DNA of 57,856 bases from Dehalococcoidales bacterium. GTDB lineage: Bacteria; Chloroflexota; Dehalococcoidia; Dehalococcoidales; UBA1222. This document shows, in pieces, positions 1,137-53,923 of the stretch. Location of the stretch: the NCBI GenBank assembly GCA_016286345.1, contig JAEESL010000004.1:1-57856 (forward strand). Direction: 5' to 3'. The first letter of the stretch is position 1; each line of letters starts with the position of its first letter. A program made the translations under genes and the position numbers. Below the pieces are notes generated by a model, which was given only the letters and a program-made list of their open reading frames with translations, made no database searches and was not told the DNA's origin.

Positions 1137-1274
1137 CTATTTTTCAATTTTGTCTTTGAGGGTTTCGATTTCCTGTCGGTTTTTCTTCTGTTTTCGCATT
1201 ATATCAAAAACAAGAACACATAAACCGATCCAGATAAGTGTGTAAGCAGCGAATAAATATCCTAAATTATCCAT
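1137..1274 (-). CDS. ccmD: CcmD-like small membrane protein (45 aa), not in supplied ORF track
   Basis: Translated by hand: MDNLGYLFAAYTLIWIGLCVLVFDIMRKQKKNRQEIETLKDKIEK*. One TM followed by basic/coiled tail; ATG overlaps ccmC stop (TAATG). Confidence 0.8.
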   Translation of the reverse strand: MDNLGYLFAAYTLIWIGLCVLVFDIMRKQKKNRQEIETLKDKIEK

Positions 1275-1951
1275 TAGTCATTCTCCTTTAAAAGTCTTTT
1301 CTTCATTCTTGCAATTTCATATTCATCTGTTCTCAGATCGTAGTAGAGGAACATGAAAAGGAAATAGACTGCAAACATAGCGGCAATTGAAAGGAGTAGT
1401 GTAAGCAGCATCGTTCCATGAAGGCCGTCGTTGAAGATCATTGCTTTTGGATGGGTGGTAGGTGCCAGCTGGATGCTAAGGGCGACGATGGGAATATCAA
1501 TGAAACCGACAATGCCGATGATTGAACCGAATCTGTATTTTTTCTCTTCTTCAGAGATATATGATCTGATTATAAAGTAAGCAAGATAGATCAGCCACAT
1601 TACAAGTGAACTTGTAAGCCTGGCGTCCCATGTCCACCAAACGCCCCAGATAGGCTTTGCCCAGATCATTCCGGTAAGAAGGATCAATGTGGCAAATACA
1701 AGGCCTATTTTTGCGGATGATTCAGCAATAAAATCATATTTGGGGTTACGGGTCTTCAGATAAACTATTCCAAAGACAAATGTTACAAAGAATGAGAAAA
1801 ATGCATTCCATGCAACCGGGACGTGGAAATAGAAGATACGTTGAATATTGCCCATAGTGGCTTCTGTAGGACAAACAATAAAAACCATGACAAGCGCAAC
1901 AATAATCATTACTGCGCTTATACCGAATGCAATAAGTGTTCTACGTCGCAT
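1274..1951 (-). CDS. ccmC: heme exporter / cytochrome c biogenesis protein CcmC
   Basis: Tryptophan-rich WGVWWTWDARLTS motif, 6 TM, position in ccm operon. Confidence 0.95.
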   Translation of the reverse strand: MRRRTLIAFGISAVMIIVALVMVFIVCPTEATMGNIQRIFYFHVPVAWNAFFSFFVTFVFGIVYLKTRNPKYDFIAESSAKIGLVFATLILLTGMIWAKPIWGVWWTWDARLTSSLVMWLIYLAYFIIRSYISEEEKKYRFGSIIGIVGFIDIPIVALSIQLAPTTHPKAMIFNDGLHGTMLLTLLLSIAAMFAVYFLFMFLYYDLRTDEYEIARMKKRLLKEND

Positions 1952-1960
1952 AACTCCTCC

Positions 1961-2632
1961 TTATTCTTCAACAATATATCTAAATAAAATAAACGGGACT
2001 GTAACAAAGATGATGTCAAATGCCACAATAATCAGCATGTATTGTGTGATATCACTGAATTTGCCTCCGTCGAGAATGACGGATGTCGCAGATACGGCGG
2101 CGATAATCAGTGGTACCACTGTGGGAAGAAACAGAATAGGGAGTACCATTTCCCGTGCTCTCGTATTGACTGCAAGCGCTGAGAAAAGTATTCCTATCGA
2201 AACAAATCCGATCGTGGCAAGTAAAGTGACAAGAATAACAATGGGATTGATAACTGATACATTATATAAAAGTGTAAAAACAGGGAAGACAACGATTTCT
2301 ATGATCAGCATGAAAACAATGCTGCCTATTGCCTTGCCCAGGAAAATCGCATCCCTGCTTACAGGGCTTGCAAGAAGACCTTCCATACAGTTATCTTCTT
2401 TTTCAGAAATAAAGGCTCTGTTGATGGATAAGACACCTGAAAACGCAAACGCCACCCATAACATACCGGGAGCAAGCGAAAGAATTGTTTTCTGATCAGC
2501 TGTGAAAGCAAAATGGAAAATGATAAGTGTCAGAACAGCAAACAGCAGAACAGAGGAAATAATCTCTCTGTTTCTAAGTTCGGAAATAACATCCTTTTTT
2601 GCTATTGCGAAGACTGCTTTCCAGTAGTTCAT
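1961..2632 (-). CDS. ccmB: heme exporter protein CcmB
   Basis: EKEDNCMEGLLASPVSRDAIFLGK motif and TM pattern; 4-bp overlap with ccmA. Confidence 0.93.
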   Translation of the reverse strand: MNYWKAVFAIAKKDVISELRNREIISSVLLFAVLTLIIFHFAFTADQKTILSLAPGMLWVAFAFSGVLSINRAFISEKEDNCMEGLLASPVSRDAIFLGKAIGSIVFMLIIEIVVFPVFTLLYNVSVINPIVILVTLLATIGFVSIGILFSALAVNTRAREMVLPILFLPTVVPLIIAAVSATSVILDGGKFSDITQYMLIIVAFDIIFVTVPFILFRYIVEE

Positions 2633-3339
2633 TTTTTGCCTTCGTTGACTTCACTGTATATTTTTTCCAGATCACTCTCTGTGATGCCGTTATTATCCTG
2701 TCGGTGAACAACAGATCCCTTTTTCATGATTATAAATTCATCACAGATTTTTACAGTGCTCTGAAAATTATGACTTGTAAAAATAACTGTTCTTTCTGTA
2801 TCGTCTGTTCTGACGATTTCCCATAACAGCTCCATGCTGTCACGGTCCAGTCCTGTTTCCGGTTCATCCAGCAAAAGAATAGACGGCTGATGTAAAAGAG
2901 CTCTCGCCAGACTCAGCCGCTGTGTCATACCGCGCGAATATGTTCCGACACGATCGTTCCTTCTGTCATACAGATTTACTTTTTTCAGTATCTCATCGAT
3001 CCGTTTGTCCGGATCCTTTAAATTGTAAAGGCTGGAATAGAACTTCAGATTCTCCTTTGCGGACAGATTTGAATACAGGTAACTGTTATGAGACAGTAAA
3101 CCAATCTTGCTTCGCAGTAAAGTGTCATCTTCTTTCAGTTCTTTGCCGTCGATGAAGACTTTACCTTCAGTAGGGTGCATGATGGTTGACAGTACTCTGA
3201 TAAGCGTACTTTTTCCGGCTCCGTTATGACCAAGGATTGCAAGTATTCTGTTTTTGTCTACGGATAGATTGACGTTTTTAAGGGCTTTAAAATCCCCAAA
3301 CCGTTTTGTTAAATCCTTACACTCTATCGCATATGACAT
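2629..3339 (-). CDS. ccmA: heme exporter ATP-binding protein CcmA
   Basis: Walker A GHNGAGKST, SRGMTQRLSLARALL signature, LLLDEP Walker B. Confidence 0.93.
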   Translation of the reverse strand: MSYAIECKDLTKRFGDFKALKNVNLSVDKNRILAILGHNGAGKSTLIRVLSTIMHPTEGKVFIDGKELKEDDTLLRSKIGLLSHNSYLYSNLSAKENLKFYSSLYNLKDPDKRIDEILKKVNLYDRRNDRVGTYSRGMTQRLSLARALLHQPSILLLDEPETGLDRDSMELLWEIVRTDDTERTVIFTSHNFQSTVKICDEFIIMKKGSVVHRQDNNGITESDLEKIYSEVNEGKK

Positions 3340-3354
3340 CTGAATAATGTTGCC

Positions 3355-5310
3355 TTATCTTTCCTTGGAGAATGCAACCAATCCGCCCAGGACAAGAATG
3401 ATACCGCCGATCCAGATCCACAGTACTCCGGGATTGACTTTAACTGAGATAGTGGAAGTATTATCATCCCAGTCATCCAAACTGATGTATATATCATCAA
3501 TGAGTGTGGATCTGATTCCTATCTCTGATACCCACTGGGCCTGGCTTCTGTAGAATGATCTGTGAGGAGTTATTCTGCCGACGTATTTGCCATTCTTGGT
3601 GACATCATAGAATGCGTAATAGTTTATCTTGTTACCCATTCCTCCGCCTTCAGGTATCTGATCCATCGATAACTGCATTCCATCAAAGGTTATTTCATAA
3701 TTGCTGACTGTAAGTGATTCACCTATCGCCAGAGTATTTGATTCGCTTTCAGGGAAAACAGTTGATGCCATGATACCGAGAGCCATAATGGCAATACCAA
3801 TGTGTGCAAGATAAGAACCATATCGCGGTCTGTTTGTCTTGAATAAATTGCCAAGGGCTTCAAAGACGGTCTTATTTGTACCGCTGGCAGCCGTTTTGAT
3901 ATCCATGATCCATTTCCAGATGGTGCTGGCAATCATATAGAAGAATGCAAATCCGCTTACAATTACATACCATTTTGTCCAGCCAATGAAAGCCATGACA
4001 ACAGATGCGGCAATTGCTACCAGAACAGGGACCAGAATATCAAGTTTCATTTCTTTTGCAGATTTCTTCTTGAAATCAAACATAATGCCGATTCCGGCGA
4101 TTACAGCCAGTATTACAAATAAAGGTACATTTACTGTCTGGAAGAACGCCTTGGTCTGTTCAATTCGTCTGCCTGTCAGGATTTCTGAGAAGAAAGGATA
4201 CATTGTGCCAACCCAGGTAGCGAATGTTGAAAGAGAAAGAAGTACATTTACCAAAAGGAATGAAGTATCTGAAGAGAAGAAACTGTCTTCTTCTGATGTT
4301 GTCTTATATAGTTTTTTGTTTCTGATAAGTAAAGTCAGGGAAACACCAAGTGAAATAATCAGGAATACAAGGAAAGCAGGACCCATTGCGGTCGATCCGA
4401 ATGAGTGAACTGATTCCAGAATGTCGCTTCTGGAAAGAAATGCGCCAAACATTGTCATATTGAATGCAAAAATGATAAGGACATAATTCCAGATCTTGAA
4501 GGAATTGCGTCTCTTTTCCATGAGAGATGAATGGAGGAAAGCAGTGGCAAGCAGCCATGGCATCAGACCGCTGTTCTCAACAGGATCCCAGGCCCAGTAG
4601 CCACCCCAGCCGAGTTCCACATAAGCCCACCACATACCGAGAATGTTACCGGCTCCGAGGAATAACCATCCAAGCAGAGCCCATGGACGTGCTTCTGTAA
4701 TCCAAAGACTGTCAGTTCTTTTCTGTATAAGAGAAGAGACTGCAAGAGCAAATGGTACTGCAAGCAGTACATAACCTATCAACAATAGGGGAGGATGCAG
4801 GATCATTGCTATGTTTTCAAGGAGAGGGTTAAGACCGTGACCATTGGTGTACGGCATAGCTGCGGGAGTGAACGGGTTAGCTGAAAAAATAAGTACAATA
4901 AACAAAATATTGACCAGGAGCATTACAGGCATTGCCTGGGGAACTAATTCTTTAAGCCCCGGTCTCTTGATCTTAATAAGAAGGAAACTCAACAGACTGC
5001 ATATCCATGCCCATATAAGAAGTGCACCTGCATTACCTGCCCACAGAGCTGTAATCTTGTAAATAAGGGCTGTTTCATTTGATGTGTATTGATATACATA
5101 TTGCAGGGTATAATTGTCTGCGATAAGTGCTATCAGAAGCAGAAGCTCAGAGAGTGTTAAAATCGCAAAGATGGTTTTTATGCCAAATTCCGCATATTTG
5201 TTCAGTACAGTGGTATCCTTCTTTTTGTTCCATGACATAAAATAAAGAACACCTGTCATTACTGACACTATAAGTGCAATGACCAGCAGCAGATTTCCTA
5301 ATGTACTCAT
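3355..5310 (-). CDS. ccmF: heme lyase subunit CcmF
   Basis: GWGGYWAWDPVENSGLMPWL WWD motif, many TMs, operon context. Confidence 0.96.
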   Translation of the reverse strand: MSTLGNLLLVIALIVSVMTGVLYFMSWNKKKDTTVLNKYAEFGIKTIFAILTLSELLLLIALIADNYTLQYVYQYTSNETALIYKITALWAGNAGALLIWAWICSLLSFLLIKIKRPGLKELVPQAMPVMLLVNILFIVLIFSANPFTPAAMPYTNGHGLNPLLENIAMILHPPLLLIGYVLLAVPFALAVSSLIQKRTDSLWITEARPWALLGWLFLGAGNILGMWWAYVELGWGGYWAWDPVENSGLMPWLLATAFLHSSLMEKRRNSFKIWNYVLIIFAFNMTMFGAFLSRSDILESVHSFGSTAMGPAFLVFLIISLGVSLTLLIRNKKLYKTTSEEDSFFSSDTSFLLVNVLLSLSTFATWVGTMYPFFSEILTGRRIEQTKAFFQTVNVPLFVILAVIAGIGIMFDFKKKSAKEMKLDILVPVLVAIAASVVMAFIGWTKWYVIVSGFAFFYMIASTIWKWIMDIKTAASGTNKTVFEALGNLFKTNRPRYGSYLAHIGIAIMALGIMASTVFPESESNTLAIGESLTVSNYEITFDGMQLSMDQIPEGGGMGNKINYYAFYDVTKNGKYVGRITPHRSFYRSQAQWVSEIGIRSTLIDDIYISLDDWDDNTSTISVKVNPGVLWIWIGGIILVLGGLVAFSKER

Positions 5311-5322
5311 TGATTTATTCTC

Positions 5323-5709
5323 CTAAACTGCAGGTTCATATTTAGATGAGCATTTGACGATTAATTCATTTGCAATGAAAGTTGCTGTATTAGGATCGTA
5401 CTTTCCTGCGGCAACAACTTCATTGCCGATTTTGAATGTATCAGGAATTGAGCCTTCATAATAAGCATTAAGAACCAAGGATTCATCATTCATATCAGTG
5501 AGGACAAATGCCACTGAATTCTTATCTCTTTCTTCAGACAAAAGGGTTCCATTGACTTTGGTGTTATGCATCTGCTGTTCAACAGTCTGTGACAAAAAAT
5601 CACCGACTTCATAATAATATGCATTATCACCCATAAAATAAGCATATCCGAGTACTGCAATTGCAAACGCAACTGCTACTGATGAAATTACAATCGTTTT
5701 TGATTTCAT
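5323..5709 (-). CDS. ccmE: cytochrome c maturation heme chaperone CcmE, Cys (CxxxY) variant
   Basis: N-terminal TM, OB-fold-like body, C-terminal LIVKCSSKYEP where canonical CcmE has a heme-binding His. Confidence 0.9.
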   Translation of the reverse strand: MKSKTIVISSVAVAFAIAVLGYAYFMGDNAYYYEVGDFLSQTVEQQMHNTKVNGTLLSEERDKNSVAFVLTDMNDESLVLNAYYEGSIPDTFKIGNEVVAAGKYDPNTATFIANELIVKCSSKYEPAV

Positions 5710-6376: not shown

Positions 6377-6853
6377 TTAGATATTTGAAATATCGGTCAA
6401 ATCATGGCACATAGTGCACATATCATTACTATATGCCTTGTGGTTATCAGGAAGTGCACCAGCAACAGCACCGGTATGACACTTTCCTGCAAGTGATACA
6501 TCGAAGTTTGAGTGATCAGGAACAACTTTGTTGGGAAGTGCTTCGATGTTAGTTACATCATGACACAACACACACAGGTCAGTAGTAAAGTCTTTATGGC
6601 TTTCTGGAACAGCACTGGCCGATGAACCATCGTGGCATGCAGCACAAAGATCGCCGGAAGTGTATGAGGCGTGGCTGGGTGTTGGTTCAGGTCCGGATGT
6701 AGGAGGATTGGTTGTGGGAGGAGTTGTTGTAGGTCCCTGTGATGTAGGAGGATTGGTTGTGGGAGGAGTGGAAGTTTTCTTACCGCTACATGCAACAGAG
6801 AACAGTGAAAGAACCAATACTGTCACAGCAATGACTGTCAAAAGCTTTTTCAT
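6377..6853 (-). CDS. small multiheme c-type cytochrome lipoprotein (3 CxxCH + 1 AxxCH)
   Basis: Lipobox-like FSVACS, Pro/Thr linker, CAACH, CVLCH, CTMCH and LAGKCH at the remaining repeat position. Confidence 0.88.
   Translation of the reverse strand: MKKLLTVIAVTVLVLSLFSVACSGKKTSTPPTTNPPTSQGPTTTPPTTNPPTSGPEPTPSHASYTSGDLCAACHDGSSASAVPESHKDFTTDLCVLCHDVTNIEALPNKVVPDHSNFDVSLAGKCHTGAVAGALPDNHKAYSNDMCTMCHDLTDISNI
6696..6769. repeat. two perfect 29-bp direct repeats (6696-6724, 6741-6769) encoding the TPPTTNPPT linker
   Basis: gatgtaggaggattggttgtgggaggagt occurs twice with 45-nt period. Confidence 0.9.
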
Positions 6854-7018
6854 TTTGTCCGTACATTCATCCTTTCTTTAGATTTTACAATTTTCTATTC
6901 TAACAAACTCTTATCGTGTAGACAAGTACAGCTATTTTTTAAACAATCTTATTATTCCATCAATGATGAGTATTAGATATTACCAATGTCACATTTTTCC
7001 AGAACAGCAGGCAAATAA

Positions 7019-7044
7019 AAAGGCCCTTCAGACGAAGGGCCTTT
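7019..7044 (-). terminator. intrinsic terminator downstream of 12-heme cytochrome gene
   Basis: aaaggccctt-cagacg-aagggccttt. Confidence 0.8.
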
Positions 7045-7064
7045 AATAACATATGCTTTAGATA

Positions 7065-8072
7065 TTAGATGTTTGTAATATCGTTAATATCGTGGCAGGC
7101 GAAGCACATATCGTTGTTGTATGCCTTGTGATTGTCAGGCATTGCATTTGCAGCTGATCCATCGTGACAAGTTGCACAGATTGCAGGATCAGTGAAGGTT
7201 GAGTGATCAGGAACTGTCTGAGGATTTTCGATATCGTTTACATCGTGACAATTGAAACACTGATCAACAGAGTAGCCTGCATGATTCTCAGGGAGTGCAT
7301 TTGCAGCTTTGCCGTTGTGGCAGGTTGCACAGGTTGAAGGATCAGTGAATGCAGTGTGATCAGGCAGTGTCTTAGGATTCTCGATATCTTTAATATCATG
7401 GCAGGCGAAGCACATATCAGTTGCGAAAGCTGAGTGATCAGGGGTAGTGGGGAGAGCGCCTGCGGCTGAGCCGTCATGACATGTTGCACAGATTGCGGGA
7501 TTAGTGAATCCGGAGTGATCAGGAGTGGATTTAGGATTCTTGATGTCGTTCATATCATGGCAGTTGAAACACTTTGATTTGTCATATCCGGCATGATCTG
7601 CAGGAAGGGCATGAGCATAGCTGCCGTTGTGACATACTTCACAGTTGGCTGCTGAAGTGAATTTTGAATGATCAGGTGTAACTGCACTGTTAGGAAGTTT
7701 TTTGATGTCCTTGGTGTCATGACAAATCAGACACTGAGCTGCAGTGTACTTGCTGTGATCTGCAGGAAGTGCTGATGCTTGTTTTCCATCATGGCAGTAA
7801 GCACAGCCGTCACCAGTGGTCATCTGGGTGTGATCATACATACCGGAAGGATTATCAATTGTATGACACTGTCCGCAGTCCTGGTTGGTATACTGTGAGT
7901 GATCAAGACCGCTCATAGCGGTAGCACCGGCATGACATGCATTGCAGTCTCTGAAGAGCCATTCAGGGCTGTGAGGACCACCGTTCATCGATTTGTTGCC
8001 ACAAGCAGTGGCGCCCAAAGCCAATGCTGCGATAAGGAGTAAACCGAAAATTACTTTTTTGTTAGTTTTCAT
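7065..8072 (-). CDS. dodecaheme c-type cytochrome lipoprotein
   Basis: 12 CxxCH motifs counted (CNACH, CGQCH, CAYCH, CLICH, CEVCH, CFNCH, CATCH, CFACH, CATCH, CFNCH, CATCH, CFACH); lipoprotein-type signal with Cys. Confidence 0.95.
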   Translation of the reverse strand: MKTNKKVIFGLLLIAALALGATACGNKSMNGGPHSPEWLFRDCNACHAGATAMSGLDHSQYTNQDCGQCHTIDNPSGMYDHTQMTTGDGCAYCHDGKQASALPADHSKYTAAQCLICHDTKDIKKLPNSAVTPDHSKFTSAANCEVCHNGSYAHALPADHAGYDKSKCFNCHDMNDIKNPKSTPDHSGFTNPAICATCHDGSAAGALPTTPDHSAFATDMCFACHDIKDIENPKTLPDHTAFTDPSTCATCHNGKAANALPENHAGYSVDQCFNCHDVNDIENPQTVPDHSTFTDPAICATCHDGSAANAMPDNHKAYNNDMCFACHDINDITNI

Positions 8073-8084
8073 ATTTGTATCTCC

Positions 8085-8951
8085 TTATCTTCCTCTCAAT
8101 TTGTCATACCAAACCAAGAAGTGATGTTTGGTATCTTCCAGGGTCATATCAAATGTCCACCAGGACCAGAATGAAGCCCAGTGACCAAGAATTACGACGA
8201 TCATTACGTGAACACAGGTGTAGAAGATAATGAAAATACCGAAATAGTCATGGAGAATGGTAGCAATACCATCAATGATAGCCGGCATGCTAATGAGATG
8301 TGCACCAAACTTGACTGCACCGGATAAGAAACAAACAACACCGATTAAGAAGTAAGGTACAGCTGCAGCTTTCTGGCTGGCCATGTATTTGTCGGGTTCT
8401 TCCCAGTAATTTCTGTAAGTATATTTGCCGATGAAACCTTTGATAACTTCGTGCCATTTAGGAACGAGATACCAGATGTTCCAGTTTGCAATGTAGTCGC
8501 ATACGAATAACGCACCGCCAAAACAAATCAGACATACTGCAAAGTAATGGAAGTTAAGAGGTGCGACTGTTGCTCCTGCAGTTCGGGCAAACGGACCAAT
8601 CATACCGAAGCCGAGTGAAAGGCCGAGTATTGCACCGGATACTGCTGCAGCGAAGATGCCGAATGCAGTGTACCAGTGTTCAATAAATGAACCTATGCCA
8701 TGTCGAATCACTACGCCTTTCTCAATTCTTGACTGTTTCTTTAATCTGCCTCGCATGAAGCCCAGAATACATCCAAGAACGAATATGCCGATTAAGACAT
8801 ACTGTCCAATCTTGTTGTCCCAAAGAGAAACATCTTTGAGAACGGTGTAGGATGCAACAATGCCACCTGCCAGGGCAGCCAAAAGAACAATCGTCAGGAT
8901 AATAGCCTGTGGTTTAAAACGTGATGCATAACGTTTAAGTGTTTTGATCAT
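8085..8951 (-). CDS. membrane cytochrome b (formate dehydrogenase gamma / cytochrome b561-like)
   Basis: Multi-TM with conserved His (FIEHWYTAFGI, FHYFAV, FYTCVHVMIVVILGHW); adjacent to multiheme cytochrome. Confidence 0.8.
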   Translation of the reverse strand: MIKTLKRYASRFKPQAIILTIVLLAALAGGIVASYTVLKDVSLWDNKIGQYVLIGIFVLGCILGFMRGRLKKQSRIEKGVVIRHGIGSFIEHWYTAFGIFAAAVSGAILGLSLGFGMIGPFARTAGATVAPLNFHYFAVCLICFGGALFVCDYIANWNIWYLVPKWHEVIKGFIGKYTYRNYWEEPDKYMASQKAAAVPYFLIGVVCFLSGAVKFGAHLISMPAIIDGIATILHDYFGIFIIFYTCVHVMIVVILGHWASFWSWWTFDMTLEDTKHHFLVWYDKLRGR

Positions 8952-9203: not shown

Positions 9204-9830
9204 TTGATGTTATTACCTAATGATGTAAAAATACCGGCTATTCTCATGGCTGCCGGAATGAGTACCAGAATGGGAAGAAACAAACTGCTTCTTCCTTTTA
9301 ATGGACATACAGTTATTGCTGAGACTTGCGATAGGCTTCTGGCATCTCATGTAAGTGAAGTCATTGTCGTTCTGGGCAATGATCACGATAAGGTACTGAA
9401 CCAGGTCGCAGATAAAGGTGTCCAAATGGTCCTTAATCCTAATTTTGCGCGGGGTATGATGACTTCGCTGCAGACCGGTATCAGTTATCTTCCTGAGAAT
9501 ACCAGGTTCTTTATGGTTGCTTTGGGAGATCAGCCTCTTGTTTCTGTTGGAACTTATAATGCACTCATTGGTGCTACTGCCTATACCAGCAGGAAGATAT
9601 TTGTCCCTGTGTATGGAAGACAGCGTGGTAATCCTATTATTCTGTCTGCTGATTATATCCAGGAAATAATGGGTATGGATGGCGATATCGGAGGCCGTGA
9701 GATCCTGAGACGGTATCCCGGAGATATACAGGAAGTTGCAACCACTAATGAAGGTGTAATCATTAATATGAATACACCTGAAGAATATGCCCGCCGAAAA
9801 GCCGAATTTGATAAAAAGATGGGTTTATGA
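9204..9830 (+). CDS. MobA/MocA-like nucleotidyltransferase family protein
   Basis: IPAILMAAGMSTRMGRNKLLLPFNG and LGDQPLVS motifs. Confidence 0.85.
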   Translation: MMLLPNDVKIPAILMAAGMSTRMGRNKLLLPFNGHTVIAETCDRLLASHVSEVIVVLGNDHDKVLNQVADKGVQMVLNPNFARGMMTSLQTGISYLPENTRFFMVALGDQPLVSVGTYNALIGATAYTSRKIFVPVYGRQRGNPIILSADYIQEIMGMDGDIGGREILRRYPGDIQEVATTNEGVIINMNTPEEYARRKAEFDKKMGL

Positions 9831-10858
9831 CGAATATTTCTGATTATAGTCCGGAACAGCTAACCGAATATTTCAAATCAAAGAAAATACCTTCATTCAG
9901 AACCAAACAGCTTTTGGAATGGGTCTACAGAAAACCCGTGTTCAAGTTTGATGAAATGACTGATCTTCCCAAGACTCTTCGTGACGATCTGGCTGCGGAT
10001 TTCAGTCTTTATTCGGTCAGGGAACTTATCAGAAAAGTCAGTATTGACGGAACCAATAAAGCATTATTTGAACTGGGTGACGGGGAATCGGTTGAGACTG
10101 CCTTGATCCCGTCAGGTGATGGTTTCAACTATACGATATGTGTTTCATGTCAGGTGGGCTGCCCTATGGGCTGTGCATTCTGCTCAACCGGACATCAGGG
10201 CTTTCAGCGTAATCTCAGTGTCAGCGAAATTGTTGACCAGGTAAGATACTTTAATGCGTTGCTTGGATCCAATGGAAGAATAAGCAACGTTGTGTTCATG
10301 GGAATGGGAGAACCTTTTTCAAACTATGACAATGTCATACGTGCGGCAAATATTATGAACGCTGACTGGGGAATCAATATCGCTGCAAGATCCATAACTA
10401 TATCTACTGTGGGTGTAATCAGCGGAATACGAAACTTCATGAGGGAAGGACATCAGTTCGGTTTGGCAGTATCGCTTCATGCCCCCAGTGATCAGATCAG
10501 AAACCGTTTGCTTCCTTATAATAAATCAACGGGTGTGGACAAACTGCTCAAAGCCTGCCGTGATTATGTGAGCATCACAAACAGAAGGATCACTTTTGAA
10601 TACTGTCTGTTCAAAGGAATTAATGATACCCGTGAAGTGGCGGATGAACTAATAGATAAGCTTAAAGGACTTAACTGTCACGTCAATCTTATAGCCCCGA
10701 ATGCTACATTTGATCATGGCCTTCAGCCATCTGAATCTGTGCTTGACTTTGAAAACTATCTGAAGGATAACCATATCAATGTGACGCTGCGCAAAAGCAT
10801 GGGCAGTGATATCGATGCTGCATGCGGTCAGCTCAAGAGCAACAGCTACAGAACGTAG
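9827..10858 (+). CDS. rlmN: 23S rRNA (adenine2503-C2)-methyltransferase RlmN
   Basis: CPMGCAFCSTGHQGFQRNLS radical SAM motif, GMGEPFSNYDNV, FEYCLFKGIND. Confidence 0.96.
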   Translation: MTNISDYSPEQLTEYFKSKKIPSFRTKQLLEWVYRKPVFKFDEMTDLPKTLRDDLAADFSLYSVRELIRKVSIDGTNKALFELGDGESVETALIPSGDGFNYTICVSCQVGCPMGCAFCSTGHQGFQRNLSVSEIVDQVRYFNALLGSNGRISNVVFMGMGEPFSNYDNVIRAANIMNADWGINIAARSITISTVGVISGIRNFMREGHQFGLAVSLHAPSDQIRNRLLPYNKSTGVDKLLKACRDYVSITNRRITFEYCLFKGINDTREVADELIDKLKGLNCHVNLIAPNATFDHGLQPSESVLDFENYLKDNHINVTLRKSMGSDIDAACGQLKSNSYRT

Positions 10859-11802
10859 GTTACAAACAGAAACGCAATGAATGTTGTGGCAGCCAGCGGC
10901 GGCAGTGCCGGCATAGGCTTTCCATGAAGGATCTTTTCCTGGATGAAATAGACCAGAACAAGTCCGACAACAGAAGATAATCCGATAATAACTGATGCAA
11001 TAAGCTGGTGTCTGAAATAACAGGCTGCACTGAGGATGAGAGGAAATGCGATATCTCCGCCTCCAAGTATCGAATAATCTTTATCTTCCGGTTTCTGTTC
11101 TGCAATGACTTTGATATTGGGAGTATTGAGATTATCTTTTAATTCATCCGGTGTTGCAGGAAGAACGAAAGCAGGCAGACTGTTCACGTTGGACATTTTA
11201 TCGACCATCCAGAGCATAAGTCCTTTTTTGACAGCGATCTAGTCATAAACTGCCATAAGAATGAGCAGGATCATTGCTGTCCACGGACTGATGAATCTGC
11301 CGAAAATACTTGCAATGCTTACCATTGATGTGATCATGAGAGTATCATGAAGCCAAATCTTGGGTCTGATGAACCAGCATACTGCAAGGACAACTGCCAA
11401 TCCTATGGCCACCCAGATATTTATCCATATTCCGAGAAGAACTATTACGCCCCATGCAAACAGTATCGTAAACAAACATTTGAACACTACAGACAGGGCT
11501 TTAAGCGGAATGACTGCAAATACTATCGCAATAATAGCTATTACCACAGCAAAATAGATAACTATCACACCTATCGAAGAAGTCGGATCCGGTGCAGGTT
11601 CGATTATTTCTCCGGTATCAGGATCTGTAACCGGAGTCGGCCAGATAACGATATCTGTGTCAGGCTGTGTCGGAACATAAATCTGGTGATCGTCCAGAAA
11701 CGGCTGCTGGTGCCAGACCGACACAATCGTAAGCGCCTGGGCAATGATCAGAATTATTATGCTCCAGTACAGGGGCTTGATAAACCATTTTTTCTTAGTC
11801 AT
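10846..11802 (-). pseudogene. presenilin-like (A22/GxGD) intramembrane aspartyl protease gene with one in-frame TAG at 11239-11241 (pseudogene, split gene or readthrough)
   Basis: ORFs 11239-11802 and 10846-11217 are in the same frame separated by TAG + 7 sense codons; first ends ...LILMAVYD (YD motif), second carries LGGGDIAFPL (GxGD) and PALPPL (PAL) motifs. Confidence 0.85.
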
Positions 11803-14492: not shown

Positions 14493-14936
14493 ATGGAAGT
14501 TATGAAAATGATATACAGATATGTTGTAGATGCAGTTCTTGAAAGTGTCACGGAAATAACAGATAAGGTTGACACGATACTTGATAGCAACGGATGCCCT
14601 TTGAAGGTTAAATCGCAGATCGATGTTGCGATAGATGAGTTGCTGGGCAATATTGTCATGTATGCCTACAGCGGCGAAAAGGGTAAAGCCATCATCACTG
14701 TGGATACTTCAGTCGACAATCAGATCAAGATTGTTTTTGCCGACGCAGGTATTCCGTTTGATCCGACCGCGAAGGAAGACCCCGATATCACACTTGAAGC
14801 TGATGAGCGACAGATCGGCGGTCTTGGTATTTTTATGGTCAAGAAAATGATGGATTCAGTAGTATACGAACGCAAAGATGACAAGAACGTTCTTACTATC
14901 GTTAAAAGTTGGGAGCCGCAGTCTGATGAAAAATGA
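14493..14936 (+). CDS. RsbW-like ATP-binding (anti-sigma/serine kinase) HATPase_c_2 protein
   Basis: N-box DELLGNIVMYAY, ADAGIPFDPTA, GGLGIFMVKKMMD, YERKDDKNVLTI. Confidence 0.92.
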   Translation: MEVMKMIYRYVVDAVLESVTEITDKVDTILDSNGCPLKVKSQIDVAIDELLGNIVMYAYSGEKGKAIITVDTSVDNQIKIVFADAGIPFDPTAKEDPDITLEADERQIGGLGIFMVKKMMDSVVYERKDDKNVLTIVKSWEPQSDEK

Positions 14937-15507
14937 TTCTAAACTGTTTGAAAAGGCATTGAAATTTGCGATTAAAGCCCACAGCGGCATGGTTCGCAAG
15001 AACGGTAATTCTCCTTATGTCCTTCATCCCATGGAGGTTGCTGTGATCCTCTCCAGTATGACTGAAGACAATGAGATCCTTGCGGCAGGACTCCTTCATG
15101 ATGTCGTGGAGGACACTGAGCATACACTGGATGAAATAAGAGAATTGTTCGGTGAAAGAGTTGCTCGGCTCGTGAGTTCAGAAAACGAAAACAAGCGCCA
15201 TGGTCAGTCATCTAAAAAAACATGGAAGATCAGAAAACAGGAATCTCTGGAAGAACTGAAAAACAGCGGTGATACAGCCGTTAAGATGATATGGCTGGCA
15301 GACAAGCTTTCCAATATGCGTTCATTTTACAGGCTGTATCTGGCTGAAGGTGCAGCAATGTGGAATCACTTTAATCAGAATAATCCTGTGGAGCAGGAAT
15401 GGTATTACAGAACAATAGCAGATAATATCTCAGAATTATCCGATACCAACGCCTACAAGGAATACTTGTGGATGGTTGATCAGGTTTTTGCTGATAATAA
15501 TAAATAG
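14926..15507 (+). CDS. HD-domain phosphohydrolase, RelA/SpoT-hydrolase-like
   Basis: HSGMVRKNGNSPYVLHPMEVA, LLHDVVEDTE, WLADKLSNM; start MKNDSK overlapping the preceding stop. Confidence 0.9.
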   Translation: MKNDSKLFEKALKFAIKAHSGMVRKNGNSPYVLHPMEVAVILSSMTEDNEILAAGLLHDVVEDTEHTLDEIRELFGERVARLVSSENENKRHGQSSKKTWKIRKQESLEELKNSGDTAVKMIWLADKLSNMRSFYRLYLAEGAAMWNHFNQNNPVEQEWYYRTIADNISELSDTNAYKEYLWMVDQVFADNNK

Positions 15508-15522
15508 TGAGAGAGATTGTTT

Positions 15523-16704
15523 ATGGATAATGTAAATGAAGTTTATCAGGATGGAGCACTGACAATCGCATTAAGCGGACACGTGGACACTAATAATGCT
15601 CCTCAGGTTGAGCAGGCTGTCAATGGCATGCTGGAAGCTCATCCTAAGGACAGCGTAATTATCGATATGGAAAAGCTGGAATATATCTCCAGCGCCGGAT
15701 TACGAATAATCCTCAGAGTTAGGAAAGCACATCCTGAACTGAGAATAATCAATGTCTCATCTGAGATCTATGACATTCTTGAAATGACCGGTTTCACTGA
15801 AATGATCACGGTTGAGAAAGCATACAAGCGTGTGAGTGTAGAAGGGTGTGAAACGATCGGGGAAGGCTCAAACGGTAAAGTGTACCGACTTGATGCCGAA
15901 ACAATCATCAAAGTTTATAAAAATCCCGATTCTCTCCCCGATATCAAGCGTGAAAGAGAGCTTGCAAGAAAAGCTTTTGTTCTGGGTATTCCAACTGCAA
16001 TACCTTACGGCGTCGTCAAAGTAGGCGACAGTTACGGGTCTGTTTTTGAGCTTCTCAGCGCACAGTCTTTCTCAAAGCTTATCGTCAAGGAACCTGAAAA
16101 TGCAGACAAATATATCGGCATATATGTCGATCTTCTCAAGAAAATCCATGGTACGGAATTGAAAAAGGGTGAGATGCCTGATATGAAGGAAGTTACCGTC
16201 GGACGAACAGAGTTTCTGAAGGATTATCTTCCTTCAGAAACATATGAAAAACTGCACAGTCTGATTTCTGATGTTCCTGATAATAATCATATGCTTCATG
16301 GGGATTATCATACTAACAATGTAATGCTCCAGAACGGAGAGGTCCTGCTTATCGATATGGATACTCTCTGCCTGGGAGATCCTATATTTGAATTTGCCTC
16401 AATCTATCTGGGATACCTAGGATTCAGCGAGATCGATCACAATGTGACCATGTCTTTCCTTGGCCTCCCGTATGAGACATGCAGATATATCTGGGATGAA
16501 ACACTGAGGCTTTATTTCGGCACTGAAGACAAGGATCTTCTTGCTTCTATCGAGAAAAAAGCCATTATCGTTGGTCAGCTCAGATTACTTAGAAGAACTA
16601 TCAAGCGTTTGGGAAATACAGAAGAAGGTAAAAGACAGATCGAATTATCCCGCAAACACCTGATTGAACTGGTTCCTCAGGTCGATTCCCTGTCTCTGGC
16701 ATAA
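15523..16704 (+). CDS. STAS domain fused to aminoglycoside-phosphotransferase-like (TIGR02172-type) kinase
   Basis: N-term VIIDMEKLEYISSAGLRIILRV STAS; C-term LHGDYHTNNVMLQNGEVLLIDMDTLCLGDP APH catalytic loop. Confidence 0.9.
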   Translation: MDNVNEVYQDGALTIALSGHVDTNNAPQVEQAVNGMLEAHPKDSVIIDMEKLEYISSAGLRIILRVRKAHPELRIINVSSEIYDILEMTGFTEMITVEKAYKRVSVEGCETIGEGSNGKVYRLDAETIIKVYKNPDSLPDIKRERELARKAFVLGIPTAIPYGVVKVGDSYGSVFELLSAQSFSKLIVKEPENADKYIGIYVDLLKKIHGTELKKGEMPDMKEVTVGRTEFLKDYLPSETYEKLHSLISDVPDNNHMLHGDYHTNNVMLQNGEVLLIDMDTLCLGDPIFEFASIYLGYLGFSEIDHNVTMSFLGLPYETCRYIWDETLRLYFGTEDKDLLASIEKKAIIVGQLRLLRRTIKRLGNTEEGKRQIELSRKHLIELVPQVDSLSLA

Positions 16705-16707
16705 CAG

Positions 16708-19416
16708 ATGAACACTAATAAGAAATCTAACAGACTTATTTACCTGGCAACCGTTTTATTAGTCCTGATTTCCGTATTAGGTACATTCACCGGCTGCAGT
16801 AAGGAAACCGAATCCAATGAGATCAAATATAAGACCTTTGATGATTTTGCAGGTACATCCATCGGCAGTTCTCTCGGTGATGATTACGAATCACTGATAT
16901 TCGATACATTTCATGATATCACTCATAAAGAATACACTGACTTTCATGCCGCTCTGGTAGGTCTCGAACACAGACAGATTTCAGCAATGCTGACCCAGAA
17001 GCCCTGTGCACTGGCAGTCGCCGCAGAAAACAGTGAACTGGCAGTATTTCCTATTGTTGTTGATACAGAAAACACAAGTTTTCTTTTCAAATATGGAAGT
17101 GAACTGACTGCTCCTGTTTCAGCAATAATGAAACAAATGGATGAAGACGGGACGATTGCAGCTCTTCAGGAAAAGTGGCTTGATTTCGAAGGTGAGGATC
17201 CTGTTATAGATCCCTCTTTGAGAGACACTTCAGGAAGGACCGGCGGAAAGATCAGATTCCTTATTGACATTGCCGGAATTGTTCCTTTCGGTTACTTCGA
17301 TGCAGACGGACAGCCTACCGGTTATGAAGTTGAACTATTCCTGATGATCGCACAGAAATTAAATATGGATGTCGATATCAAGAGCATGGATCTTGTATCT
17401 TCCATGCAGGCACTTAAACAGGGAAAGGCCGATATGCTCGGCAGTAACATCCCTTATACAGCTGAGCGTGCTGAAGAATTTGATTTCTCATATCCCGACT
17501 GGGTGAATGATATTGTCCTCCTCTGCCAGAAAGCAGATATTATGGAGGTCGAAGAAGAGGAACATAAAAACTTCTTCCAAAGCATTGCAGACAGTTTTTA
17601 CAAGACATTCATCAGAGATGCCAGATGGAAACTTGTACTCAATGGTTTGCTCATTACATTACTGATCACATTCCTTTCCGGTATTTTCGGAACTGTTGTC
17701 GGATTTTTCTGGGCGATTGGTTTCAGAGCAAAGAAAAAATGGATTTCAACACCTCTGAAGGTCATATCAAAGTTTCTGTCCGGAGTGCCGAGTATCGTTA
17801 TACTTCTGCTGACTTATTATGTCGTATTTAAATCGATTGATATTGCTCCGCTCGCAGTAAGCATAATTGCCTTTACGGTCATATTCGGCAATAAGATTGC
17901 AGGGATGATCGACGGCGGTATTGCATCAGTCGGAAAAGGGCAGTGGGAAGCTGCAACAGCTCTTGGCCTGACCAGAAAACAGACCTATAACAAAGTCGTA
18001 TTTCCTCAGGTGATCCGTGCGATACTTCCGTCATACAAGGAAGCTTTCGGCGGCTTGCTTGAATCAACTTCCATTGTGGGTTACATCGCAATTGCAGACC
18101 TTACCAAAGCGGTTGATATCATCAGAAGCAGAACGTATGAAGCTTTCTTCCCGTTAATTGCTGATGCAGCGATATATTTCATGGTTTCATGGCTGATCAT
18201 ATTTATCTTTACTAAGATTGAGATCAAAGTTGATGTTTATAACAGGAAGCGTGCCCTCACACGCGGTGTTAATAAAAACGTAACGATCAAAAAAGGTATT
18301 TCCAATGTCGAAGGTGAAAAAGGCGAGGAAATCATTCGTCTTGAACATATAAAGAAAGTGTATCCGAAGGTGACTCCTCTTGTTGATGTCAATGGTATGA
18401 TCAAGAGGGGAGACGTTATTGCGATAGTCGGCCCTTCAGGCACAGGAAAGTCAACACTGCTTCGATTGATCAACCGTATGGAAGACCCGACCGAGGGTAA
18501 GATATATGCATTTGGACAGGATACCGATTCCGAAGATTACGATCTTGTTGAACTTCACAAAAATATGGGAATGGTCTTCCAGCATTTCAATCTGTTCACT
18601 CATCTGAACGTAATTGAAAATGTAATGCTTGCTCCTATGGTGGTCAATCACATGTCGGCACAGGAGGCATATGAAGCAGGTATGGGCCTGTTGAAAACAC
18701 TTGGTGTTGCGGAAAAGGCTTTGGTTTATCCTGATGAACTGTCAGGCGGCCAGATGCAGAGAGTCGCAATTGCAAGAGCAGTTGCCATGAATCCCCAGGT
18801 ACTTCTTTTTGATGAGCCGACAAGTGCACTCGACCCTGCGATGGTGGATGAAGTTATTGCAAGTATGAAGATTCTTGCAAAACGTGGATTGACAATGCTT
18901 GTCGTAACGCATGAAATGCAGCTTGCACGTGATATTTCCACAAGACTCTTCTACATGGATAAAGGTGAGATCTATGAAGAAGGTCCGACTGAGGAGATGT
19001 TTGAGAATGCCAAGCGTCACAGAACTCTTGCTTTCATCAACAGAATGAGAGTGCTTGAACTCACCATCTTCAGTGCCGATTATGACTTCCTGGCAATGAA
19101 CAAAAGGATCACTGTTTTCTGCGACAGACATGAGATCCCTCATGCCAGAAATGAACAGATACTCAGATGCTTTGAAGAAATCGTTGCAGTCAACATCGTT
19201 CCTAAACTTGAAACAGGTTCAAAGCTTCATGTATTCATCGATTATCAGAGTGACAGAAAAGAGCTCTCCATGGTCTTCAACTGGCGGGGTGCAAGATTTG
19301 AGCCTATGGTCGACGGTGATGAAATCTCGGTTATGATCATCAGAAAGAGTATTACACGTGACGATTATCGTTATGATGATGCTGACACCAGAAATATTTT
19401 CAAAGTCGTACTTTAA
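16708..19416 (+). CDS. single-chain polar amino-acid-type ABC transporter: lipoprotein SBP(s) + permease + ATPase + C-terminal RsbW-like domain
   Basis: Lipobox TFTGCS; SBP_bac_3-like GYFDADGQPTGYEVELFLMIA; permease KQWEAATALGLTRKQTY-type EAA loop (GQWEAATALGLTRKQTYNKVVFPQ); ATPase GPSGTGKST...LSGGQMQRVAIARA...LLFDEPTSALD; C-terminal domain similar to the RsbW-like protein. Confidence 0.92.
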   Translation: MNTNKKSNRLIYLATVLLVLISVLGTFTGCSKETESNEIKYKTFDDFAGTSIGSSLGDDYESLIFDTFHDITHKEYTDFHAALVGLEHRQISAMLTQKPCALAVAAENSELAVFPIVVDTENTSFLFKYGSELTAPVSAIMKQMDEDGTIAALQEKWLDFEGEDPVIDPSLRDTSGRTGGKIRFLIDIAGIVPFGYFDADGQPTGYEVELFLMIAQKLNMDVDIKSMDLVSSMQALKQGKADMLGSNIPYTAERAEEFDFSYPDWVNDIVLLCQKADIMEVEEEEHKNFFQSIADSFYKTFIRDARWKLVLNGLLITLLITFLSGIFGTVVGFFWAIGFRAKKKWISTPLKVISKFLSGVPSIVILLLTYYVVFKSIDIAPLAVSIIAFTVIFGNKIAGMIDGGIASVGKGQWEAATALGLTRKQTYNKVVFPQVIRAILPSYKEAFGGLLESTSIVGYIAIADLTKAVDIIRSRTYEAFFPLIADAAIYFMVSWLIIFIFTKIEIKVDVYNRKRALTRGVNKNVTIKKGISNVEGEKGEEIIRLEHIKKVYPKVTPLVDVNGMIKRGDVIAIVGPSGTGKSTLLRLINRMEDPTEGKIYAFGQDTDSEDYDLVELHKNMGMVFQHFNLFTHLNVIENVMLAPMVVNHMSAQEAYEAGMGLLKTLGVAEKALVYPDELSGGQMQRVAIARAVAMNPQVLLFDEPTSALDPAMVDEVIASMKILAKRGLTMLVVTHEMQLARDISTRLFYMDKGEIYEEGPTEEMFENAKRHRTLAFINRMRVLELTIFSADYDFLAMNKRITVFCDRHEIPHARNEQILRCFEEIVAVNIVPKLETGSKLHVFIDYQSDRKELSMVFNWRGARFEPMVDGDEISVMIIRKSITRDDYRYDDADTRNIFKVVL

Positions 19417-19446
19417 GTTATAATATTTTTTGGAAGGAATAGATCT

Positions 19447-19749
19447 ATGGATATTTCAAAAAGTGTAGAAAACAATGTATTAACATTTAAAATCTCCGGC
19501 AGACTTGATACTGTAACTGCTCCAAGCCTGGAGGCTGCAGTCAAGGAAGCTGTGACTCCTGAAACTTCAGGTATGATCTTTGATATGAGTGATCTTGAAT
19601 ATACATCTTCTGCAGGCTTAAGAGTTATTCTGATGTCCCATAAACTTATGTCTAAAACTGCTGAGGGATTCAAACTGATTAACGTATCAGCAGATGTCAG
19701 GGAAGTTCTTGAAATGACAGGTTTTCTTGATATCCTGACAATTGAATAG
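19447..19749 (+). CDS. STAS domain anti-sigma factor antagonist-like protein
   Basis: MIFDMSDLEYTSSAGLRVILMSHKLM. Confidence 0.93.
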   Translation: MDISKSVENNVLTFKISGRLDTVTAPSLEAAVKEAVTPETSGMIFDMSDLEYTSSAGLRVILMSHKLMSKTAEGFKLINVSADVREVLEMTGFLDILTIE

Positions 19750-51316: not shown

Positions 51317-53923
51317 TTATAACGATGCCTGATTTACTATATGATCCAGTTTCTTTTCCGGATAGTAATTGTATGTGAAAACCGGTACCACAGAATAGTG
51401 CTTCTCAGATGTTTTCATTACCTTTTCAGAGTCGTATGTGACGTTGTACCCCAGATCATCATACTCCATTGTTCTGACAAGTCCGCTCTCATCAAATACA
51501 TTAATGACATTGCCGTAATCATCATAACTGAACCTGACTGAATGATTTTTGTTGTCTTTTTTCGTCACAAGATGTCCATCGGAATCATATTCCATATCGA
51601 TGCGGTATCCTTCGGAGTCTTCTATTTTTATGATTTTGTTCTTCTCATTGTATTCAAAACAGGTTTCTTTTCCGTAATTATCTGTGAATCCGATCAGTCG
51701 GTTTGCTTCATCGAATGAATAAGAATAACTGTTTCCCTGATTATCGGATTTTCCAATACAGTTTCCGCTTGAATCATAGGAATACTCCTGGTCACCGATA
51801 ACAATGGGTTCATTTATGGCATCGTAGATTATTCTCATATGATCGCCGTCAAAAGAATCCACTGATATTGTCAGACCTTTCATATTCGTTACGGTGGCGG
51901 TACCTTTTTCTGAATCAATAATCTTTATTGTGGACATATCATCAAAACGCTGGAACAGGACTTCTTTTCTTGCAGAGTAGGTGATCTTTTCAATGACAGG
52001 TGCAAGGCCTCGTCTGTCGTATACAATGTCATACAGAACGTTATACGGGGAGTCGCTGATGGATGTAAGTAATCCGTCTGATGAATAATTGAAGAATATA
52101 TTCTTATTCTCTGTATCCGTGATACATGTCAGATTATCGAGATTATCATATTCAAACTTAAACATTGTTCCGTCAGACAGTTCCATTGAAATACATCTGT
52201 TTCTGTCATCATATTTGAAAAGGAATTTCCTGCCGGCTGTATCCATGATGTCCTTTATTTTCAGTCCGTCATATGTGAGTGTCAGAGCATTTCCATAAGC
52301 ATCGGAAACGTATTCAAGGTAATAATCGGCGGTATTGGTAAAGGATGAATACTTGTAATACATGTTATCAACGCCACGGTACACAAATGAATCATCACCC
52401 TGTACCAGTTCTCCGGTCTCATGCATGATAGGCAGAAGTACACGGGGCTTCTCATTGCTTATCTGTCTTGTGGTAAAACTGCTTGAATCTCCATCCCCGC
52501 TTGTCACTGTGAATGTATCGGCGCTGGATCCTCTGAATACTGCGGAAGAGTAATTGAAATGCCATCCGTTTCCGAACATGCCTGATTCGCTTGCCCGGTT
52601 TGTATTGAAGCTCAGACATGGTCTGATCGTAAGCCCGGACATATGTGTTTCAAGCATCTTGTAGCGGATGAACAAACCAAGATCTGTAGTGTTTATCTGG
52701 CATGACAGATGATGTGACAGCTTATGCTTCAGATACAGTGTCTGTTTGTTGAACTCGGGCGATGATGCACTGTTGGGAGTAAGGGGTTCGACTGACATGG
52801 ATACAAGAGCCTTCAGAGATTGCTTCAGTGAAGTCAGATTGGTATCGGTGCTGTACTTGTCAGGTCTGTTCTGTGAGGCGGCTTCATCTATTGCTTTCTG
52901 TATTGAAGCTATTTCATCTTCTTTATTTACAAATACGACCTTCTTCGGCTTGTATTCGATATCTTCAGGCTTGTCCTGATATTCGACTTTCGTTCCGCAG
53001 ATAGGACAGAATGCATATATATTCTTCAGTGCTGAATGACAATTGGAGCAGAAAATCACATTTTCATCATCAATAAATGCTTCCGGATTATTGTTGATTA
53101 TTACAGGAGCAGTTTCCGCTTTTACTGTCTGAATTGTCGGGTTCGGTGTTTCATTGAACTTACTTGTTTCAGATATTGGTGATGCTGATATAAATTCTTT
53201 TACTGTTTCCGGTTCTGATTCCACGGATGTTTCAGAAATATATTCAGTTTCTGTTCCTGTTTCCAGTACCGGTTCGTTGTATACAGGCTCAACAACTTCA
53301 GATTTGGTGTCTTCTACTGTTTCCTCTGTTTCAGAATATACCGGAATATCTTCAATCGGTGGTTCTTCTGTATATGATGATTCTTCAGCCTGTTCAATAT
53401 CAGTTGTACTTATTGAATTCTCTGAAATCTGTTCATCAGCAACAACAGAAACTGATGAATCACTGGTTTTGGGAATAATCGGAATGATCACTTCGGATTC
53501 AATAGGTTCGCGTACAGGCTGCTGATCACTGCCCTGGGTTTTTGCCTCTATTACATAAGTCTGGGTTTTCTCTGGCTGTGTTATTTCAGCTCCGCACCAG
53601 TGGCAGAACAGGGCAGACGGTCTGATCTTCTTTGAACAATTTTGACATTCGATCAGGTTTTCATCATTGATCACGGTTCCGCACCATCGGCAGAAAGTTG
53701 CGGTCGGTTTGATCTTTTCTGAACAATTGGGACAGTTTATCAGTGTTTCCAGATCAGTTCCGCAGAATCTGCAGAACTTTGCAGTTACAGATATTTTTTT
53801 AAGACAGACGGGACAATCTTTTTCCTGTGATTTGCCACAGAAATGACAGAACTTCGCATCAGAATTAATGCTGTTTCCGCAGTAAATGCAATCTTTCTCT
53901 GTTTCAGAATTATTCATAGCCAT
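51317..53923 (-). CDS. zinc-ribbon array / RHS (YD-repeat) fusion protein
   Basis: Four N-terminal tandem ribbons plus a fifth (CSNCHSALKNIYAFCPICGT), S/T/E-rich linker, then GMFGNGWHFNYSS and repeated YDxxGN/YDSDGHL YD motifs. Confidence 0.88.
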   Translation of the reverse strand: MAMNNSETEKDCIYCGNSINSDAKFCHFCGKSQEKDCPVCLKKISVTAKFCRFCGTDLETLINCPNCSEKIKPTATFCRWCGTVINDENLIECQNCSKKIRPSALFCHWCGAEITQPEKTQTYVIEAKTQGSDQQPVREPIESEVIIPIIPKTSDSSVSVVADEQISENSISTTDIEQAEESSYTEEPPIEDIPVYSETEETVEDTKSEVVEPVYNEPVLETGTETEYISETSVESEPETVKEFISASPISETSKFNETPNPTIQTVKAETAPVIINNNPEAFIDDENVIFCSNCHSALKNIYAFCPICGTKVEYQDKPEDIEYKPKKVVFVNKEDEIASIQKAIDEAASQNRPDKYSTDTNLTSLKQSLKALVSMSVEPLTPNSASSPEFNKQTLYLKHKLSHHLSCQINTTDLGLFIRYKMLETHMSGLTIRPCLSFNTNRASESGMFGNGWHFNYSSAVFRGSSADTFTVTSGDGDSSSFTTRQISNEKPRVLLPIMHETGELVQGDDSFVYRGVDNMYYKYSSFTNTADYYLEYVSDAYGNALTLTYDGLKIKDIMDTAGRKFLFKYDDRNRCISMELSDGTMFKFEYDNLDNLTCITDTENKNIFFNYSSDGLLTSISDSPYNVLYDIVYDRRGLAPVIEKITYSARKEVLFQRFDDMSTIKIIDSEKGTATVTNMKGLTISVDSFDGDHMRIIYDAINEPIVIGDQEYSYDSSGNCIGKSDNQGNSYSYSFDEANRLIGFTDNYGKETCFEYNEKNKIIKIEDSEGYRIDMEYDSDGHLVTKKDNKNHSVRFSYDDYGNVINVFDESGLVRTMEYDDLGYNVTYDSEKVMKTSEKHYSVVPVFTYNYYPEKKLDHIVNQASL

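Follow-up and report, generated by a model that had tools for sequence, protein, structure and literature searches.

A lineage-private TAG directly behind a catalytic aspartate interrupts a presenilin-like protease gene in a Dehalococcoidales bacterium

Two minus-strand open reading frames (ORFs) in a 57,856-nucleotide stretch of Dehalococcoidales DNA (the whole stretch analyzed, termed the window herein), one at 11802-11239 (187 aa, ending in MAVYD-TAG) and one at 11217-10846 (123 aa), share a single frame, and reading across the TAG at 11241-11239 continues with IAVKKGLMLWMVDKM. An earlier note, made from the sequence alone, had described them as one intramembrane aspartyl protease of the presenilin type, divided by a stop codon that directly follows one of the two catalytic aspartates, and had offered three explanations: a fresh nonsense mutation, amber readthrough or recoding, or a naturally split protease resembling the NTF and CTF of presenilin. 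Which of these accounts for the stop is the question addressed here, and the features concerned are the following.

10846..11802, minus strand: interrupted gene for a PSH-type intramembrane aspartyl protease (presenilin/SPP family), from the ATG at 11802 to the terminal TAG at 10846
11242..11802, minus strand: part before the stop, 187 aa, from TM1 through most of TM6, with the YD motif last
11239..11241, minus strand: in-frame TAG, codon 188, right behind D187 of the catalytic pair; the sister gene has TAT (Tyr) and 52/52 orthologues have a sense codon here
11222..11230 (approximate to 1-2 bases), minus strand: Shine-Dalgarno-like AAAAAAGGA run
10849..11217, minus strand: segment of 123 aa that begins with the downstream ATG (11217) and runs to the end of the frame, with GGGD (D250) and PALPP
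9827..10858, plus strand: rlmN-like radical-SAM gene, convergent with the protease gene and overlapping its 3' end; order kept in the sister genome

The full protease frame comprises 318 codons plus the terminal TAG and contains one internal stop, at codon 188, with LGGGDIAFPL (D250) and PALPPL both lying beyond it; the coordinates and motifs given in the earlier note, with the TAG as the codon right after the YD aspartate and GxGD and PAL downstream, were thus correct. Besides this TAG, the protease frame contains no stop or frameshift, and the YD, GGGD, and PALPP motifs are intact, which indicates that the stop is either young or spurious. An uninterrupted orthologue is found in a genus-mate of the window genome (termed the sister herein), on a contig of 10,119 bases (JAEEOC010000104.1, Dehalococcoidales bacterium Tb.RUG.278, an isolate name that by itself would suggest a rumen habitat). 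The sister gene aligns with the joined frame end to end at about 65-66% identity, showing that the two ORFs are one gene rather than chance neighbors, as had been claimed. The gene order (MobA-like, rlmN-like, protease, zinc ribbon, HAD) is identical in the two genomes, the sister gene being likewise flanked by the rlmN-like and zinc-ribbon genes, and in both genus members the protease gene terminates in TAG. As assembled, the TAG at codon 188 separates the two aspartates, and the window copy belongs to the A22 family in disrupted form. Elsewhere in the window, two multi-CXXCH cytochrome-like proteins adjoin a cytochrome b-like membrane protein (6377-8951, minus strand), with cytochrome c maturation-type genes beside them (1274-5709); the first three of these genes are retained in the sister genome.

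The family call of the earlier note was confirmed by HMM, PDB-sequence, and fold searches. The read-through frame scored 53.9 bits against Pfam SPP (cut-off, 23.9 bits), with a profile match that spans the stop, and a profile built from 34 orthologues matched, among solved structures, archaeal PSH (4hyc; E = 5e-12) as well as presenilin-1. An AlphaFold2 model in which the TAG was folded as Tyr reached a pLDDT of 89.7 and a pTM of 0.88, and its best fold matches in Foldseek were SPPL2a, archaeal PSH, and presenilin-1. Together, sequence and model place the gene as a bacterial presenilin/SPP homologue (PSH, A22). The motif residues are Y186-D187, G247-G248-G249-D250, and P298-A299-L300, all of them invariant or nearly so except L300. 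In the model, D187 lies in helix 173-192 (TM6), so that the stop truncates TM6 five residues short of its end, and D250 opens helix 248-290, which puts the pair in TM6 and TM7 as is typical of the presenilin fold. The archaeal PSH of Methanoculleus marisnigri (PDB 4HYG, 4HYC, and 4Y6K; NF041679; Pfam PF06550) shares the fold, the helix order, and the YD/GxGD/PAL-type motifs with the window protein, whereas the latter has a bacterial host, only ~17-18% identity in the fold alignment, a longer loop after TM1, a frame broken by TAG, and a score of 63.9 bits against NCBIfam NF041679, below the curated cut-off of 125 bits for this archaeal PSH equivalog. Human presenilin-1 and SPPL2a have the fold and the catalytic Asp pair in common with the window protease.

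The orthologues bear on the choice between the explanations. The protease gene was present in 62 of the 156 Dehalococcoidales genomes searched, and in 29 of the 52 best-quality genomes. All 52 other orthologues read in the order have a sense codon at position 188 (F in 23, V in 13, L in 10, Y in 4, and I in 2), and, unlike the window gene, none is internally stopped or split. Two candidate internal stops (TAG in G055 and TGA in G110) were absent on inspection and most likely represented the terminal stop of the query. A search of IMG/VR for the same species' stretch returned no match. The earlier note had proposed reading this codon in orthologues as sense or TAG, and sense it is throughout; since 0/52 related genomes carry the stop, the likeliest cause is a mutation that recently broke the gene or an error of one base in the assembly, rather than a new mode of making the protein. 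The stop is private to the window genome, and we consider it highly probable that it is a lineage-private nonsense codon (a recent pseudogene, a strain polymorphism, or a consensus error) in an otherwise normal PSH-type protease gene. Of the three explanations offered, a fresh nonsense mutation, or a base-call or assembly error, is the sole one that fits the comparison of orthologues.

The events would then be simple. A normal, single-copy PSH-type protease gene of Dehalococcoidales would have taken one private nonsense change at codon 188, most simply from a Tyr codon, the TAT of the sister being one base change from TAG. Translation of the gene as assembled would end at D187, D250 would not be joined to it, and no active protease would be expected beyond trace readthrough. 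Its patchy presence (62/156 genomes; 29/52 of high quality) indicates that the gene is dispensable and suggests repeated loss in Dehalococcoidales, and the stop's striking place beside the catalytic aspartate would then come down to a single base change, private to this genome, in a gene that the cell can do without. As an observation in its own right, PSH-type proteases are widespread yet patchy in this order (loci L047 and L048 among others), and their frequency provides many bacterial relatives of presenilin to study.

As for the source of the stop, a recent loss-of-function mutation that became fixed, a strain polymorphism taken up by the assembler, and a consensus error would all produce this gene. 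In the latter two cases, the TAG would be a minority strain allele or a one-base consensus error and most cells would carry an intact gene, a version to which we assign a substantial probability, if somewhat short of even. It is favored by the single base that separates the TAG from the sister's TAT, by the otherwise lesion-free frame, and by the state of the assembly (a draft genome of 115 contigs, 91% complete and 2.5% contaminated), but a contig of 57.9 kb points to reasonable coverage, and wrong bases in the consensus are rare in contigs of this kind. Relative to the sister, third codon positions downstream of the stop differ at 80 of 130 sites and first plus second positions at 48 of 260, and third-position changes well exceed those at other positions in both halves of the gene, which indicates that the protease was constrained through most of its history. 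When family outgroups were used to identify private replacements, the protease showed 37 in the window lineage and 21 in the sister, compared to 48 and 69, respectively, in three neighboring genes (MobA-like, cytochrome b-like, and rlmN-like). The difference is significant (Fisher p = 0.006), with only three genes as controls and saturated dS in the comparison, and it gives no date for the stop. Five replacements at conserved columns are private to the window genome (L95F, F120I, P128N, G266Q, and K293H). This faster change on the window branch hints at a real relaxation of constraint, which speaks against a mere error. The earlier note had linked an error or pseudogene to uniformly intact orthologues with decay signatures in this genome alone; the orthologues are indeed uniformly intact (52/52), while a search of the protease frame for a second lesion found none.

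Could the UAG be read as an amino acid (a Tyr-like residue, Pyl, or another), yielding the protease at its full length, possibly in small and regulated amounts? The open frame beyond the stop, with all motifs present, and the marked excess of third-position changes there would be expected in that case, but the stop is private to the window genome, and the downstream constraint may be older than the stop. In-frame stops are common in bacterial genomes and mostly short-lived, and it has been argued that some are tolerated briefly via readthrough (Belinky et al. 2021; PMC7918605). The decoding machinery of the window genome argues against recoding, one of the options of the earlier note. A PylS profile search of the genome gave a best score of 22.9 bits against a cut-off of 178 bits, and no CUA anticodon was found among 44 tRNA hits (43 anticodons assigned by ARAGORN; one tRNA is truncated at a contig end, and visual inspection of the part of its loop that can be read shows no CUA); pyrrolysine and a suppressor tRNA were rejected. 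This absence is strong evidence, though not absolute, since a genome that is 91% complete may lack small genes. Reassignment of TAG throughout the genome was likewise rejected: RF1, which reads UAG, is encoded, TAG is a routine stop that terminates 14 of 54 long window ORFs as well as the protease gene itself, and zero internal stops were seen in 72 matches across the genome (53 to ABC_tran and 19 to radical SAM). Nor did the region 3' of the codon-188 stop show an Rfam family or an unusual fold (z = +1.33), so an RNA element was discarded too. We therefore regard recoding at codon 188 as very unlikely, and low but functional UAG readthrough in the window species as slightly more doubtful still; were the latter true, leaky termination beside the catalytic aspartate would set the level of an intramembrane protease. 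There is no support for a new mechanism.

A natural split, in which fragments 1-187 and 196-318 (the latter by re-initiation at ATG 11217) would assemble as the NTF and CTF of presenilin do, has the position of the break in its favor: it falls between the two aspartates, near the end of TM6 and ahead of TM7, in the same inter-helix region as the presenilin cut. Presenilin is cut after translation, in the TM6-TM7 loop, whereas the break in the window gene is a stop codon inside TM6. The Shine-Dalgarno-like run that the earlier note had seen ahead of ATG 11217 is present, but it does not stand as a re-initiation signal: AAAAAAGGA consists of KKG codons, and the stop-free sister gene has AAAGAAAGG at the same place. 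The ATG itself encodes M196, which is invariant in the 34-sequence alignment, the triplet being ATG in every orthologue listed, that is, in genes that carry no stop. No in-frame ATG, GTG, or TTG occurs between the stop and M196, so residues 188-195, and with them the end of TM6, would be missing from both fragments; the loss of the invariant V191 and G194 makes a functional split unlikely. With 0/52 orthologues split, re-initiation was rejected, and of all the explanations considered we give this one the least credence. The private nonsense change thus stands as the preferred reading.

Two further loci of the window deserve mention. A regulatory cluster at 14493-19749 (plus strand) encodes an HATPase_c_2 (RsbW-like) protein, an HD/RelA-like protein, a STAS-APH kinase fusion, a lone STAS protein, and a polypeptide of 902 aa in which solute-binding protein, permease, and ABC ATPase are fused and whose ~140 additional residues at the C terminus appear anti-sigma-like on visual inspection; the cluster is possibly a partner-switching system tied to an amino-acid-type transporter. 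At 51317-53923 (minus strand), an 868-aa protein combines N-terminal zinc ribbons (DZR and Zn_Ribbon_1) with C-terminal RHS repeats.
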